Shown: piece by piece, positions 445 to 34,722 of the stretch
Layout: the number at the start of each line of letters is the position of its first letter
Numbering within the stretch: position 1 is the first letter of the stretch
From: a virus
Length of the DNA: 39,691 bases
IMG/VR virus record: IMGVR_UViG_3300042486_000071
Coordinates: 1-39,691 of that record
Strand: one strand, 5' to 3'
Position numbers and translations under genes: made by a program
Notes under the pieces: generated by a model
The model's database searches: none
Seen by the model: only the letters and a program-made list of their open reading frames with translations
Told to the model about the DNA's origin: nothing

Positions 445-993
445 TTAGTTTTCGCATGAGTAAATAGTCTCTTGGAGTTTTAGTTTTGGGAGGGTAGTGG
501 GAAGGGTGTAGGAGTTGTCTATGAAGGCTACTTTGTTTGTGGGTTGGATGGTTAGCCTTCCGTTGGTGAGTTCTATGAAGATGAATTCTTTGTCTTGGTC
601 TGGGCTATCTGACCATCCGTCGTTTAGGTGGGCTACTGAGAACAGGTAGGTTCCCTTTAGGATGTTTGGGCCTATCTTCGTTGTTACTGGCATTCCTCTT
701 AGGATTGGGTTTTGTAGGATTGTGAAGTTGTATGAGTAGCAGTCCCAGAGTTGGGATTCTTCTATGCGCCAGTTTTCTAATGCTTGTTCTTTGAACCTTA
801 CTGCGTTTGGTGGCAAGTTTCTGTAGAGTGCGCCGCCTTCGCGTAGGATGACGTTTATTCCCCATGCTCTGCTTGGTATGGAGGTTAGTCCTACCCACAT
901 AGCCTCTACTGGCCCTACGGGTTTTTCGTGTGTGTATTCGCTATCTATCCAGATGTAGCGATGAGTTGGGAGTGCGCCGATTTTTGTATTCAT
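445..993 (-). CDS. Hypothetical protein, 182 aa
   Basis: I do not recognise this protein. It starts at the ATG at 993 with MNTKIGALPTHRYIWIDSEY, is of mixed composition with several Trp and Tyr residues, and has no signal peptide or membrane segment. It is the last gene of the minus-strand arm. Its start lies 3 bases after a near-perfect copy of the 16-bp palindrome (997-1012), so initiation at this gene may be controlled by that element rather than by coupling to its upstream neighbour. Codon use looks like that of neighbouring genes. The reading frame and start are well supported; function is unknown. Confidence 0.7.
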   Translation of the reverse strand: MNTKIGALPTHRYIWIDSEYTHEKPVGPVEAMWVGLTSIPSRAWGINVILREGGALYRNLPPNAVRFKEQALENWRIEESQLWDCYSYNFTILQNPILRGMPVTTKIGPNILKGTYLFSVAHLNDGWSDSPDQDKEFIFIELTNGRLTIQPTNKVAFIDNSYTLPTTLPKLKLQETIYSCEN

Positions 994-2438: not shown

Positions 2439-3412
2439 TTTGTTTCAATAAACTCCATTATGCCTTTTTCCCACTGATGTTTTACACTATTCCAAGTGTG
2501 ATTTTGTAGTGTATTTTCTCTGATTATTACTGATTCTTTTTCCAAATGATCTGGGTTTTCTTTCCAGAATTTCAAAACATTTACTGCCATTTTAATGTAT
2601 TCCTGCTCATCGAATGTTTCAGTCATTACTCCACCGCCATTTGACAAGAATTGAGGTGCTAAACCTGCTGGTGCTGCAATAATCGGAATCCCGCAAACGC
2701 CTGCTTCTAATAATGGCGTTGACGCACCTTCGTAAATCGATGTCATCATGTAGACATCAACTTGTTTATACATTAAATCCATTGCTTGAAATGGAACATC
2801 ACCACGCATAATTAATTGAATTCCGCTCAATTCAGATGCCGTTACTGCAAGATGACCCCGTTTTGTATTCATACCTTGACCTTGAGTAGAATCAAAGTGT
2901 GTAAAATATCCCAAGTTATTTACTGACTTTCTTGTAAATGTAGATTGAGGAAAATTATTCTCATCTACTCCCAATTGAGTTAAGATTAACTTGCTGGAAA
3001 TCTTCGGAACTTCTTTTTTTACTGCGTGAATTGTATTCGGAGACACACAAAGTATCTTTTTAAATACATCCATGTCATTGAACAACAATTCACGATCAGT
3101 GTAAGTTTTAAGCCTCGATTGTTTTGAATTAAATGTATAGTCTGCAACCTGCTGCGGGCCATGACATACTGGCAATATTTTTTTCAGCATCTTGTCATTA
3201 AATACAGTCCCAATCCCTTCTTGAGCAGAGTTCATATCAATCAATATTGCATCGTAAACATCAGCAAAATCATTGAAGTTGTAATGATTAGGATCAAATG
3301 ACCAGTTGATAAATGTAAAATTAAATTTATCTGATAGGTTGTTGATTAAATCCCAATACACTCTTGCGTGACTCCACAACCCCATTCCGTAGATTAGTAT
3401 TTTTGGTTTCAT
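2435..3412 (-). CDS. Glycosyltransferase, GT4-like, 325 aa
   Basis: The C-terminal half carries the GT4-type donor-binding signature EGASTPLLEAGVCGIPIIAA (from residue 228), with the glutamates expected to contact the nucleotide-sugar. The N-terminal half is a degenerate Rossmann-like domain beginning MKPKILIYGMGLWSHARVYW. It is A/T-rich in codon use compared with the next glycosyltransferase, which hints at separate acquisition. It is coupled by ATGA to the glycosyltransferase upstream and the methyltransferase downstream. The acceptor could be virion protein, host glycan or modified DNA; the sequence does not say. Confidence 0.8.
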   Translation of the reverse strand: MKPKILIYGMGLWSHARVYWDLINNLSDKFNFTFINWSFDPNHYNFNDFADVYDAILIDMNSAQEGIGTVFNDKMLKKILPVCHGPQQVADYTFNSKQSRLKTYTDRELLFNDMDVFKKILCVSPNTIHAVKKEVPKISSKLILTQLGVDENNFPQSTFTRKSVNNLGYFTHFDSTQGQGMNTKRGHLAVTASELSGIQLIMRGDVPFQAMDLMYKQVDVYMMTSIYEGASTPLLEAGVCGIPIIAAPAGLAPQFLSNGGGVMTETFDEQEYIKMAVNVLKFWKENPDHLEKESVIIRENTLQNHTWNSVKHQWEKGIMEFIETK

Positions 3413-4536
3413 GGATAGTATCTGTTCATTGCTTCGATGTTATTTCCTTCGGCATACCACCCGTCTCCTGTGTAAACATCCATGACATCTGAGAAGTATT
3501 TCTCATACATGGGTGCTACCCGCTCCAAGGTGAAGTTTTTACCGAATCGGTGGCAGTTGTATGGTTGTATCTGATCTATGTTCTTAATCGCATCTACATA
3601 GTCACCCATCGTGCGGCAGCGGAATCCTGTAATTCCATGTAGGTTATTCTCGGTGAATGATCCCCAGTCGGTGGTTATTGTAGGAGTGCCAGAGAGTAGG
3701 TTTTCTATTTGGACTCCACCGAATGGTTCTACATACTGACTTGGCAGGAAGGATGCTTTCGCTCTCGACATGAGCCTCTTTCTGGTAGGAACATCAGCGT
3801 ATCCTACATAGGTAACATGGTCTGGGAGATGATAACCTTCCTCCTTTTGGCCTGCGATTACCAGTTTAACGCCTGCTCGCTGGGTAGCTTCAATGGCAAT
3901 ATCTACACCTTTCCCAGAGTATACCCTACCCAGATACAGAAAGTAATCTTCTTTCTGGTCACAGAAGTCGAAGTCTTCTTTATCGAAGTAGTTTGGGATT
4001 ACTACAGCATAGTTATCTTGCTGGCAATTCCCTACTGCTTGCATTCCGCAGAACGCATGGTAGATTGCGTAGGATTCAAATACTTTCCACCTCGCCCAGT
4101 GTCCACCCGCATATCCAATCCCCGGCTCAACTGTAATTAGGTCTGGATGCGCGTCACAGATTGGCCTTACTCCACTTCCCCAGAATGGGAGAATGAAGTC
4201 ATTTTTCTTCTTGCGCTGCCCGATTGCCTTAATAGCGTTTCGATAGAATGTTTGGTAGGCATGGTCATTGGTATTGAATTTGAAAAATGTCTTCCTCCAG
4301 TCATGTGATCCATAGCTTTTGTTGAAGTCATCGTTGGTTAGGACGGGCACGTGTTCTGTGCAGATTAAGTCTGAGTCTTCGTGTCCGTAGTGGATTACTT
4401 CATGGCCGCGTTGGGTCATCATCTTCCCGAACTTCACCACTTTTTGGGTGTAAGCACAGGCGTTAAACTCTTTAGAACTTACTGTGTGAGGTAAGCCAAG
4501 AATTTGGAATCTAAATTTATCGTTTACGATACTCAT
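3409..4536 (-). CDS. Glycosyltransferase, GT4 family, 375 aa
   Basis: This is a two-domain GT-B glycosyltransferase. Residues 198-217 (YFLYLGRVYSGKGVDIAIEA) match the GT4 phosphate-binding strand-loop, and EPFGGVQIENLLSGTP (270-285) is the EX7E-type donor-sugar motif. I prefer the ATG at 4536 over the in-frame one at 4563 because it overlaps the upstream TGA as ATGA. A copy of the 16-bp palindrome (4517-4532) occupies codons 2-7 directly after this start. With the next glycosyltransferase and the methyltransferase it forms a three-gene sugar-modification set. The acceptor is unknown. Confidence 0.85.
   Translation of the reverse strand: MSIVNDKFRFQILGLPHTVSSKEFNACAYTQKVVKFGKMMTQRGHEVIHYGHEDSDLICTEHVPVLTNDDFNKSYGSHDWRKTFFKFNTNDHAYQTFYRNAIKAIGQRKKKNDFILPFWGSGVRPICDAHPDLITVEPGIGYAGGHWARWKVFESYAIYHAFCGMQAVGNCQQDNYAVVIPNYFDKEDFDFCDQKEDYFLYLGRVYSGKGVDIAIEATQRAGVKLVIAGQKEEGYHLPDHVTYVGYADVPTRKRLMSRAKASFLPSQYVEPFGGVQIENLLSGTPTITTDWGSFTENNLHGITGFRCRTMGDYVDAIKNIDQIQPYNCHRFGKNFTLERVAPMYEKYFSDVMDVYTGDGWYAEGNNIEAMNRYYP
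4517..4532. promoter_or_regulatory. 16-bp palindrome copy 3 (one mismatch, intragenic)
   Basis: TTATCGTTTACGATAC differs from the consensus at the last base. It lies within the first codons of the glycosyltransferase gene on the minus strand (encoding Ser-Ile-Val-Asn-Asp-Lys), one base after the ATG. Confidence 0.7.
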
Positions 4537-4787
4537 AGGTTGATTAGCATCTTCTTTGCCCATTCGGGCGTATCTTCATCTACTTTCACTGTCCACTCTC
4601 CAGTAACTGCTTTGGTCATGGATAGGGCTTTAACTACTTTATTGAAGGTAACTTTCCTTGAATCAGTAATTACTTCTTTGGTTGAGAACCTTTCTCCGCA
4701 GGCACAAAGCCTCCTCCTTACTACTGTGCCATCTTTTTTTCTGCTATTGATGACTTCAGTAGGTGATTCACATTTAGGACACGTCAT
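4533..4787 (-). CDS. NrdR-like zinc-ribbon protein, 84 aa
   Basis: The N-terminus (MTCPKCESPTEVINSRKKDG, then VRRRLCACGERFSTKEV) closely resembles the zinc-ribbon DNA-binding domain of NrdR, the repressor of ribonucleotide reductase genes, including the SR and RRR residues. The second knuckle here is CxC (Cys28, Cys30) where NrdR has CxxC. The ATP-cone regulatory domain of NrdR (about 150 residues in total) is absent; a short tail ending EDTPEWAKKMLINL replaces it. It could bind NrdR boxes of the host without nucleotide control, or be a phage transcription factor. It overlaps both neighbours by ATGA. Confidence 0.7.
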   Translation of the reverse strand: MTCPKCESPTEVINSRKKDGTVVRRRLCACGERFSTKEVITDSRKVTFNKVVKALSMTKAVTGEWTVKVDEDTPEWAKKMLINL

Positions 4788-8252: not shown

Positions 8253-8268
8253 TTATCGGTAACGATAA
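8253..8268. promoter_or_regulatory. 16-bp palindrome copy 5
   Basis: TTATCGGTAACGATAA, an exact consensus match. It fills most of the 23-base gap between the stop of the replication-organiser-like gene (8269) and the methyltransferase ATG (8245). Confidence 0.85.
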
Positions 8269-9000
8269 TCAAAAGTTGGAGAATCGTTCTGGTTTAGTAG
8301 TTGCTGATCGGTTGATCCAGTTTGCGAGGAATGCGCGGCTGAACGGACGAGGCGGGTTAGCGAGTATCCAAGTCCGAGCTTTCTGCGCTTCACGTTCAAC
8401 GTCCTTATCGGGGTTGAGTCGTTTCAGTTCAGCGATGAAAGCATCATCAACAAGTTTTGGTTTTCTTTTTTGTGGAACTTTAATTGTAGTTTGGAATAGA
8501 TCAGTTGATTCGTTGCTGTTCGATGGAGCGATAGCGGAATCGGATGATGGTTCTATTTTCGGTTCCTTATTATGGTTCATTATAGGGAGACTAACTTTAG
8601 TTACCCCCACTACCATCTGCACTGGGTTAACCTCCCCCACATTAACCGCAGTTACCCCCTTGAATGTTTTCAATCGGCTTGGTGAAGTAACTTGGTTAAT
8701 GACATCTTGCGTTATTTCATCATCACCGATCTTCTCAACATTGATCGTATAAAGGTTCGATGTTTGCCTTCCAGAAAAGTCTTCACGCTCATCGCGGGTA
8801 ATGACTCCAATCTGGATTAAAGCATTCAGATACTTCTTCGTGATAGGTTCTGAGATGTTTGCTTTCTCTGCAATCTTACGGATGGACGGCCAGCAACTGG
8901 CATCGTCGTTGCAGGAGTCAGCTAAAGACAAAAGAACCAACCTTGCGTTACCTTGGGTCTTACTACGCTCAAAGACCTCTGACATTATTCTTACACTCAT
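8269..9000 (-). CDS. HTH replication-organiser-like protein, 243 aa
   Basis: The N-terminal 85 residues form a winged-helix-like domain: SEVFERSKTQGNARLVLLSL, then CWPSIRKIAEKANIS and KKYLNALIQIGVITRDER, the pattern of phage replication initiators and DnaD/O-type proteins. A long low-complexity linker follows, then a C-terminal helical segment (ELKRLNPDKDVEREAQKART) resembling the helicase-loading tail of such proteins. It precedes the methyltransferase and helicase genes, which fits origin binding and helicase loading. I chose ATG 9000 because it overlaps the upstream TGA as ATGA. The assignment rests on fold-like features and position. Confidence 0.65.
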   Translation of the reverse strand: MSVRIMSEVFERSKTQGNARLVLLSLADSCNDDASCWPSIRKIAEKANISEPITKKYLNALIQIGVITRDEREDFSGRQTSNLYTINVEKIGDDEITQDVINQVTSPSRLKTFKGVTAVNVGEVNPVQMVVGVTKVSLPIMNHNKEPKIEPSSDSAIAPSNSNESTDLFQTTIKVPQKRKPKLVDDAFIAELKRLNPDKDVEREAQKARTWILANPPRPFSRAFLANWINRSATTKPERFSNF

Positions 9001-9260
9001 AGTGGAACCTCCCATTTACATTTAGAGATCACATCTTCGATGTAACCAGCAGCAACCAATTCGTCGTAGGCATCGAGGCTTTCGGTATCAACGCAGGTCT
9101 TCCATAAATCAAGGGTCATAGCCGCATGGTCAATGCGCGACGAGTCAAGATAGCAGATGTATGCTGCGAGTCCTTTTGCCTTCCAAGACAACTTTTCGTC
9201 TTCAAGCAATTCAAGAGGGATGACTGTATAATTCGCAGCCATCTTATTAATTTTTTTCAT
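8997..9260 (-). CDS. Small HTH-like replication accessory protein, 87 aa
   Basis: The words NYTVIPLELLEDEKLSWKAK and GLAAYICYLDSS resemble the first helices of phage replication proteins of the YTVIPN.LL.D..LS.KARGLLAYL type. The protein ends after this domain. The gene downstream carries another HTH and a linker, so the pair may be a split initiator. I prefer ATG 9260; the longer GTG-started frame (9332) would translate a strongly structured leader and adds residues unlike the family. It is the first gene after the likely promoter at 9418-9446. Confidence 0.6.
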   Translation of the reverse strand: MKKINKMAANYTVIPLELLEDEKLSWKAKGLAAYICYLDSSRIDHAAMTLDLWKTCVDTESLDAYDELVAAGYIEDVISKCKWEVPL

Positions 9261-9276
9261 TTTAGAAAAAGGCGAC

Positions 9277-9411
9277 CCCTTGTAGTGGCGATAGAAAGCG
9301 GCAACTGACGCATGAAGGTGGATTACCACCACAAGGGATCATATAGTTTGTTTGTTAATTTAATTTCTATCTTGAATCCGGCCTTCACCCCGGATGTGCG
9401 ATTTCTCGCAC
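9277..9411 (-). promoter_or_regulatory. Structured leader with alternative pairings
   Basis: Three local hairpins are visible on the minus-strand RNA: TCGCAC/GTGCGA (9396-9411, 4-base loop), ATCCGG/CCGGAT (9376-9395) and GGTGG/CCACC (9317-9330). In addition 9326-9337 can pair with 9277-9288 over 12 positions with one G-U. This excludes the 9317-9330 hairpin, because both use 9326-9330. The long stem ends 16 bases before the ATG at 9260. This is the architecture of a conformational switch controlling translation of the replication genes. Confidence 0.5.
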
Positions 9412-9417
9412 GACTGA

Positions 9418-9446
9418 AAACTACTATAGGTTGTGCTCGATGTCAA
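9418..9446 (-). promoter_or_regulatory. Probable promoter of the replication operon
   Basis: On the minus strand TTGACA (9446-9441) is followed after 17 bases by TAGTTT (9423-9418). A run of seven A residues lies just upstream, like the A-tracts before the other TTGACA sites of this phage. The predicted start near 9411 coincides with the first hairpin of the leader. A 16-bp palindrome lies 11 bases upstream of the -35 (9457-9472). Confidence 0.5.
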
Positions 9447-9456
9447 GCATCTTTTT

Positions 9457-9472
9457 TTATCGGTTACGATAA
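9457..9472. promoter_or_regulatory. 16-bp palindrome copy 6
   Basis: TTATCGGTTACGATAA, an exact consensus match. It directly follows the stop codon of the PP-loop gene (9473) and sits just upstream of the probable minus-strand promoter at 9418-9446. Confidence 0.85.
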
Positions 9473-10271: not shown

Positions 10272-10287
10272 TTATCGGTTACGATAA
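10272..10287. promoter_or_regulatory. 16-bp palindrome copy 7
   Basis: TTATCGGTTACGATAA, an exact consensus match. It ends 4 bases before the ATG (10267) of the PP-loop gene and includes the TAA stop of the upstream gene (10279-10281). Confidence 0.85.
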
Positions 10288-20770: not shown

Positions 20771-20786
20771 TTATCGTTAACGATAA
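20771..20786. promoter_or_regulatory. 16-bp palindrome copy 10
   Basis: TTATCGTTAACGATAA, fully self-complementary over all 16 bases. It ends 6 bases before the ATG at 20793 and begins just after the previous stop. Confidence 0.85.
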
Positions 20787-27713: not shown

Positions 27714-27729
27714 TTATCGTAAACGATAA
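27714..27729. promoter_or_regulatory. 16-bp palindrome copy 11
   Basis: TTATCGTAAACGATAA, an exact consensus match ending 5 bases before the ATG (27735) of the first collagen-like gene. The identical sequence precedes the second collagen-like gene at nearly the same distance. Confidence 0.85.
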
Positions 27730-29166: not shown

Positions 29167-29182
29167 TTATCGTAAACGATAA
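29167..29182. promoter_or_regulatory. 16-bp palindrome copy 12
   Basis: TTATCGTAAACGATAA, identical to copy 11, ending 6 bases before the ATG (29189) of the second collagen-like gene. Confidence 0.85.
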
Positions 29183-34706: not shown

Positions 34707-34722
34707 TTATCGGAAACGATAA
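34707..34722. promoter_or_regulatory. 16-bp palindrome copy 15
   Basis: TTATCGGAAACGATAA, an exact consensus match placed between a stop codon (34704-34706) and the ATG at 34728, 5 bases away. Confidence 0.85.

Follow-up and report, generated by a model that had tools for sequence, protein, structure and literature searches.

A conserved pseudoknotted leader RNA preceding replication genes in a group of uncultured, probably cyanobacterial phages

Replication operon and upstream region

The window, meaning the whole stretch of DNA analysed, spans positions 1 to 39,691 (39,691 nt) of the IMG/VR virus record IMGVR_UViG_3300042486_000071, and sequence similarities suggest that its host is probably a cyanobacterium. 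A glycosyltransferase is 73% identical to that of Synechococcus phage S-CAM7, a hypothetical protein is 67% identical to its counterpart in ACG-2014f, and the minus-strand gene at 445–993 had mostly cyanophage matches. The nearest relatives of the genes at 1896–2438, 3409–4563 and 445–993 (minus strand) were found in phages of Synechococcus or other cyanobacteria (67%, 73% and 45% identity). The replication operon is on the minus strand, with a DnaB-like helicase gene (7486–6254) downstream of the O-like initiator, and starts with the following features:

9457–9472, no strand assigned: perfect palindrome TTATCGTAACCGATAA, a probable operator adjoining the promoter, at the same place in most relatives
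9418–9446, minus strand: promoter-like sequence TTGACA-N17-TAGTTT, with the RNA predicted to start at about 9411
8997–9260, minus strand: first gene, encoding an initiator-like small protein of 87 aa (phrog_11718, 2e-5; phrog_428 replication initiation protein, 9e-4)
8269–9000, minus strand: O-like replication initiator (HTH_36; phrog_8540, 1e-23; phrog_391, 5e-21; PF13730, 7e-8)

A scan for consensus promoters made no call at TTGACA-N17-TAGTTT (9446–9418), and both TTGACA and TAGTAGTTT were kept across the aligned relatives. The predicted 5′ UTR, from this promoter to the AUG, is taken up entirely by the RNA fold described below. Few genes in the whole window had Shine-Dalgarno matches longer than 3–4 bases upstream, and their starts look A/U-rich, with NATG or AAATG.

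The palindrome TTATCGN4CGATAA occurred in 12 perfect copies in the window, and in 18 copies when up to two mismatches were allowed, versus 1.7 expected. Sites included 422–437, 997–1012, 8253–8268, 9457–9472, 10272–10287, 20771–20786, 27714–27729, 29167–29182 and 34707–34722, and several copies, on both strands, finish 3–6 nt before an ATG. The palindrome may be the operator of a phage regulator, or may form an RNA hairpin at start codons. Four relatives (L007, L015, L022 and L030) have an inverted repeat inserted between palindrome and promoter (e.g. TTTCGTGACATCACGAAA), which is probably the terminator of the upstream gene. The initiator genes related to 8269–9000 were mosaic, with unrelated N-terminal halves and a near-identical C-terminal tail (...KPERFSNF).

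A conserved RNA fold on the minus strand

The minus-strand leader from 9411 to 9261 is a conserved structured RNA. Alignment by eye revealed five helices (P1 to P5) and one loop pseudoknot (PK), in the order P1, P2, P3 5′ strand, A-rich linker L1, P4 5′ strand, PK 3′ side, P5, P3 3′ strand, P4 3′ strand, GCC, pyrimidines and AUG. P3 crosses P4, and the pseudoknot formed by the P2 loop crosses both P3 and P4. The minimum free energy of the minus strand was −49.5, compared with −35.8 ± 3.3 for shuffled sequences (z −4.2), and none of 200 shuffles was as good. The elements, with their pairing in the aligned relatives, are:

9396–9411, minus strand: P1, 6-bp hairpin GUGCGA-GAAA-UCGCAC with a GNRA tetraloop; 99% of cells paired, 4 of 6 pairs changing on both sides
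9376–9395, minus strand: P2, perfect hairpin AUCCGG-GGUGAAGG-CCGGAU; 91.5% paired
9364–9371, minus strand: P3 5′ strand GAUAGAAA, pairing with 9297–9290; all 8 positions change on both sides
9341–9363, minus strand: L1, A-rich single-stranded linker with conserved UUAAAUURAC; UAAAU(U/C)(G)AA kept in relatives
9326–9340, minus strand: P4 5′ strand, 15 nt, crossing P3 and PK; 94.3% paired, 13 of 15 pairs two-sided
9312–9318, minus strand: PK 3′ side CCUUCAU, 7 bp with P2 loop positions 9388–9382; 98.2% paired, 5 of 7 pairs two-sided
9298–9311, minus strand: P5, small hairpin GCG-UCAGUUGC-CGC with a conserved loop; stem variants GCG/CGC, CUG/CAG and CCG/CGG
9290–9297, minus strand: P3 3′ strand UUUCUAUC; P3 pairs rank top in the covariation scan
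9274–9288, minus strand: P4 3′ strand, pairing with 9340–9326, with one U.G
9266–9273, minus strand: GCC and pyrimidine tract separating P4 from the start codon; GCC in 55 of 55 aligned leaders

Parts of this fold had been described in an earlier note on the same DNA. The two perfect hairpins that it placed at the 5′ end (9411–9396 and 9395–9376) are P1 and P2, the 8-nt loop of the latter (9389–9382) being the 5′ side of the pseudoknot. Its 12-bp stem (9337–9326 with 9288–9277), which it correctly placed 16 nt before the ATG at 9260, extends to the 15 bp of P4 (9340–9326 with 9288–9274). It missed P3, the P2-loop pseudoknot and the P5 hairpin (9311–9298), P3 and PK having been overlooked because they are pseudoknotted.

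Covariation was assessed in a MAFFT alignment of 55 leaders less than 97% alike, which was not fitted to the structure. In this alignment, 91.4% of cells were paired, against 79.3% in shuffled controls and 41–50% in slid controls, and changes on both sides were seen in 34 of 45 pairs (27.8 when shuffled); the shuffle tests are inflated by related sequences, while the slid control keeps relatedness. The covariation score was 0.447, versus 0.107–0.139 for slid helices. When arms were exchanged among relatives, P3 had 7.58 of 8 positions paired with its own arms versus 4.94 with exchanged ones (32 distinct arm pairs in 55 sequences), P4 13.8 of 15 versus 10.9 (29 arm pairs) and PK 6.87 of 7 versus 5.72. 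Duplex energies were better for own than for exchanged arms by 5.0 (P3), 10.9 (P4) and 5.0 kcal/mol (PK; own −8.1 versus cross-paired −3.1 kcal/mol), and an unsupervised scan of all column pairs placed its top 18 in the proposed helices, except for one alternative sharing PKb2. As the P3 5′ strand was placed by complementarity in the arm-exchange, column-pair-scan and duplex-energy tests, P3 is self-supporting in these three, whereas the pair count on the MAFFT alignment is free of this bias. G.U pairs were common on the transcript strand, with 33 GU and 22 GC at the first pair of PK and 35 UG at the third pair of P4, and the frequency of these pairs points to the minus-strand transcript as the selected molecule.

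The earlier note interpreted the leader as a riboswitch-like or protein-controlled element, in which P4 and a local hairpin, GGUGG-UAAU-CCACC (9330–9317), compete for five bases next to the start codon. That the replication operon has a structured, regulatory-type leader at its start codon was borne out by our analysis, but the proposed switch was not. Both helices do exist in the window and share 9330–9326, as a two-state switch would need, and the compensatory changes that were looked for in relatives were found for the big stem, but not for its competitor. The local hairpin was 77.8% paired versus 74.1% when shuffled, it scored higher when its partner was slid by three positions, it was not among the top covarying pairs, and in several divergent members that keep all other helices it was absent (0 to −0.7 kcal/mol). 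In the window it would unzip only the top five pairs of the 15-bp P4 (−43.9 versus −45.8 kcal/mol), so that trading the top of P4 for the hairpin costs about 2 kcal/mol and leaves a P4 of about 10 bp. With one helix neither conserved nor covarying and the other still holding about 10 bp, a two-state switch between them is highly improbable.

Other mutually exclusive pairings fared no better. When the P3 5′ strand was instead matched to the pyrimidine tract, an option suggested by minimum free energy folding, no covariation was seen (own −2.0 versus exchanged −2.1 kcal/mol), and for the P2 loop with GCC and pyrimidines, own pairs were no better than exchanged ones. Two conserved, mutually exclusive helices of the kind that make up an expression platform were thus not found among the hairpin at 9330–9317, the P3-strand and the P2-loop alternatives. 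For the copy at locus L293, a P1-like loop as alternative partner of P3 was considered and dropped, as that sequence overlaps the −10 box and is probably not transcribed. The sequences further hint that (G)AAC of L1 may pair with GUU(C) of the P5 loop, for which the variants GAAC/GUUC, UAAC/GUUG and GAAA/UUUC lend weak support.

The region is noncoding. A start codon with an in-frame open stretch at the position of the GTG at 9332, named in the earlier note as the alternative translation start, was present in only 6 of 55 relatives, and the ATG frame was open through the leader in only one of the 55. As reading frames are not kept in relatives, the coding explanation was rejected.

Relatives, spacing and downstream genes

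Using the O-like initiator (8269–9000) and its neighbour as query, we obtained 46 loci in IMG/VR, and blastn and nhmmer recovered the leader in 41 of the 47 loci of this first set, which includes the window itself (L001). A wider protein search, combined with a DNA pattern for P1–P2, gave the 55 leaders less than 97% alike that were aligned. All 78 loci fetched with an O-like initiator carry the RNA before the operon; a regular expression or a model detected 66 of them, and the remaining 12 (with ACAATG at the start) are aligned leaders or duplicates. Among 22 records searched whole, 21 had a single copy, located before the operon, and one (G019) had a second copy.

No family among the 4227 of Rfam 15 matched the window at the gathering threshold, and at E ≤ 10 the best matches to the leader were attributable to chance and lay on the opposite strand; nothing beyond chance similarity, and no ribozyme family, came up for six relatives, HNH-type copies (see below) among them. 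In INPHARED, no cultured phage matched 8200–9700, with the leader itself giving only short chance matches. A search for hosts with the initiator alignment returned nothing from 84,980 genomes, the DNA pattern gave chance-like matches lacking the P5 motif or fold in the genome collection, and the RNA model found nothing in two phyla (289 and 296 genomes), in a search that had no positive control. Within the part of the literature covered, no published description of this RNA was found. The evidence strongly supports the leader as a real, new RNA family, which is of a known kind (a cis-acting leader) but novel in its fold and in the set of genes that it precedes.

The distance from GCC to AUG was 7–12 nt, and was 8–10 nt in 148 of 156 counts, which represent leaders counted from two anchor positions, or approximately 78 distinct ones. 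The tract following GCC is pyrimidine-rich rather than strictly U, with U4–U7 after P4 in most members and variants such as CCCUCUU, CCCUAUAU and CCCCUUCUC in several classes. Together with the location where the operon transcript is predicted to begin, the U-run after P4 could point to a transcriptional element, either an attenuator built from P4 and the U-rich tract or a put-like antiterminator RNA that modifies RNA polymerase as it enters the early operon. This we consider improbable, as the tract is mixed pyrimidine in several classes and lies 3 nt past the stem, and the AUG distance has no meaning for RNA polymerase. Scanning for a GC-rich stem followed within 0–2 nt by a U-run gave no terminator-like site; P4 is followed by the 3-nt GCC gap and mixed pyrimidines. 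The fixed distance to the AUG of unrelated genes fits an action on the ribosome better than one on RNA polymerase.

The RNA precedes at least 15 types of first gene, as distinguished by their N-termini, most of which encode replication initiators or DnaD/O-like proteins (PHROG) or are followed by such genes. Four RNA classes (A–D), defined by P5, have gene types downstream of them in common, and a single class can be followed by many types, indicating that RNA and gene recombine independently. This shuffling argues against autoregulation by the encoded proteins, which the earlier note had suggested checking, as the same RNA types precede so many different first genes and, additionally, an HNH nuclease gene. 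An autogenous operator tied to the product of its own gene, as for T4 genes 32 and 43, does not agree with the shuffled classes A–D and the HNH-type copies.

Four divergent copies of the RNA precede the HNH nuclease gene (the second copy of G019, and L296, L297 and L351), the product of which has a WHIDHI motif and resembles endonuclease VII (PHROG). In these copies PK, P4 and P5 are re-paired, the spacing to the AUG is the same, and σ70-like promoters of their own are present at the same distance from the RNA. Initiator and HNH-type copies occurred together in at least three of these phages (G019, G610 and G611). The HNH nuclease (L293:1552–2409, L296, L297 and L351:11685–12443) has N-terminal RGxxREDG(x)FWxY repeats, and its gene lies directly after a helicase gene in L293 and L351. 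With the RNA also placed before this nuclease in some phages, genes for DNA replication and for DNA cutting may together form a small regulon. In two HNH-type copies TCC replaces GCC, and two lack P1, so that P1 is not part of the core, which consists of P2, PK, P3, P4 and P5. The copies lacking P1 also bear on protection or processing of the mRNA 5′ end, by a stability element or a self-cleaving RNA: a GNRA hairpin does mark the predicted start of the RNA, but with that hairpin absent from two copies, no match to a ribozyme family, and the AUG spacing left unexplained, such a role is very unlikely.

Precedents and candidate modes of action

SAM-II and preQ1 riboswitches are compact, pseudoknotted cis-acting leaders close to the start codon, and HEARO or IscB omega RNA is a structured RNA that directly precedes the gene of an HNH nuclease. 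The phage leader differs from the former in helix order, in its replication genes and in the absence of a match in Rfam 15. It resembles the latter in preceding an HNH gene in four loci, but the nuclease resembles endonuclease VII, the majority of copies are found before replication genes instead, and the HNH-type copies did not match the Rfam HEARO model.

In the T4 gene 32 operator, gp32 is nucleated on an unstructured region by a simple H-type pseudoknot located 67 nt upstream, and the gene is repressed by its own product (PMC3014915). The phage leader similarly has a pseudoknot and an A/U-rich stretch, the UUAAAUURAC linker resembling the UUAA(A) repeats of T4, precedes a phage replication gene, and would have translation as its regulated step. 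In contrast, it has three crossing helices that end 11–15 nt from the AUG and precedes genes for many different products, and no single-stranded DNA-binding protein was recognised among the window proteins scanned. Complex pseudoknots are also found at the translation starts of the E. coli alpha operon (S4) and of rpsO (S15), both acting by entrapment, and mycobacterial rpsO pseudoknots are located just upstream of the initiation site (PMC10931766). These embrace or adjoin the Shine-Dalgarno sequence and are bound by the encoded protein, whereas the phage leader has no Shine-Dalgarno sequence (the Shine-Dalgarno-like AAGGGG in P4 is not conserved, with others having GCAGCC or GUGACC) and no ribosomal protein gene downstream. 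None of the gp32, S4/S15 and S1 precedents is matched in its defining features.

Our preferred explanation, to which we give about even chances, is a new family of cis-acting leaders that act on translation initiation via a shared partner. In this mechanism, the promoter would start transcription at P1, and the RNA folds into the compact core shown by covariation, in which the P2 loop pairs with 9318–9312 and P3 crosses P4. The fold ends at the GCC that is invariant in the aligned leaders and at pyrimidines, held 8–10 nt before the AUG of the initiator operon, and the knotted structure would occupy the place at which the 30S subunit binds an mRNA that lacks a Shine-Dalgarno sequence, and either admit or block the ribosome. 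From the shuffling of RNA and gene we infer that the input would be a partner common to these phages, rather than the product of the downstream gene; it could be a protein of the host, whether ribosomal or not, a conserved one of the phage, or else a small molecule. Whether repressing or activating, any switching element would have to be P3, PK or the L1–P5 contact, as the 15-bp P4 is too stable to move.

A constitutive fold, serving only to recruit ribosomes or to protect the mRNA, would be nearly as good a fit. In its IRES-like form, with pseudoknot and pyrimidines binding the 30S subunit (e.g. via S1) to enhance translation without any sensing, it draws on the fixed AUG spacing before unrelated genes, the scarcity of Shine-Dalgarno sequences in the phage, the GCC followed by pyrimidines, and the high affinity reported for bS1 towards pseudoknots and U-rich enhancer sites in leaders (PMC10931766). 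Yet only one or two genes per phage use the RNA while all others manage without, and three crossing helices are not needed for a pure enhancer, and we therefore consider this reading rather unlikely. A strict metabolite riboswitch, in which the pseudoknotted core would be the aptamer of a ligand such as a nucleotide, whose binding locks P3 and PK, is unlikely. The compact fold, the conservation of unpaired positions in L1 and in the loop of P5, and the same RNA before different genes are what a common ligand predicts, but the downstream genes encode replication initiators and a nuclease instead of biosynthesis or transport proteins, and no known aptamer matches. A conserved, aptamer-like fold in the 5′ leader is present, a feature that is also common in protein-bound leaders, and the riboswitch reading is largely contained in the preferred explanation of a shared partner, in which the input stays general.

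The leader adds a well-supported phage RNA family, with a fold absent from Rfam, to a field in which a 2010 paper regarded T4 gene 32 as perhaps the sole viral pseudoknot in translational autoregulation (PMC3014915). It ties an RNA to the replication decision in a large group of phages that are uncultured and probably infect cyanobacteria. As the RNA is constant while the initiators are swapped, its partner must be something shared, which makes the signal that licenses initiation directly testable with a reporter. More tentatively, and with somewhat less than even confidence, we propose that this triple-crossing pseudoknot class responds to a shared signal of replication state or itself brings the ribosome to starts without Shine-Dalgarno sequences; if true, it would represent a bacterial IRES-like or sensor module, re-used before interchangeable replication initiators and DNA-cutting genes. 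The leader is probably a new kind of RNA control switch or ribosome landing site for the start of phage DNA replication.
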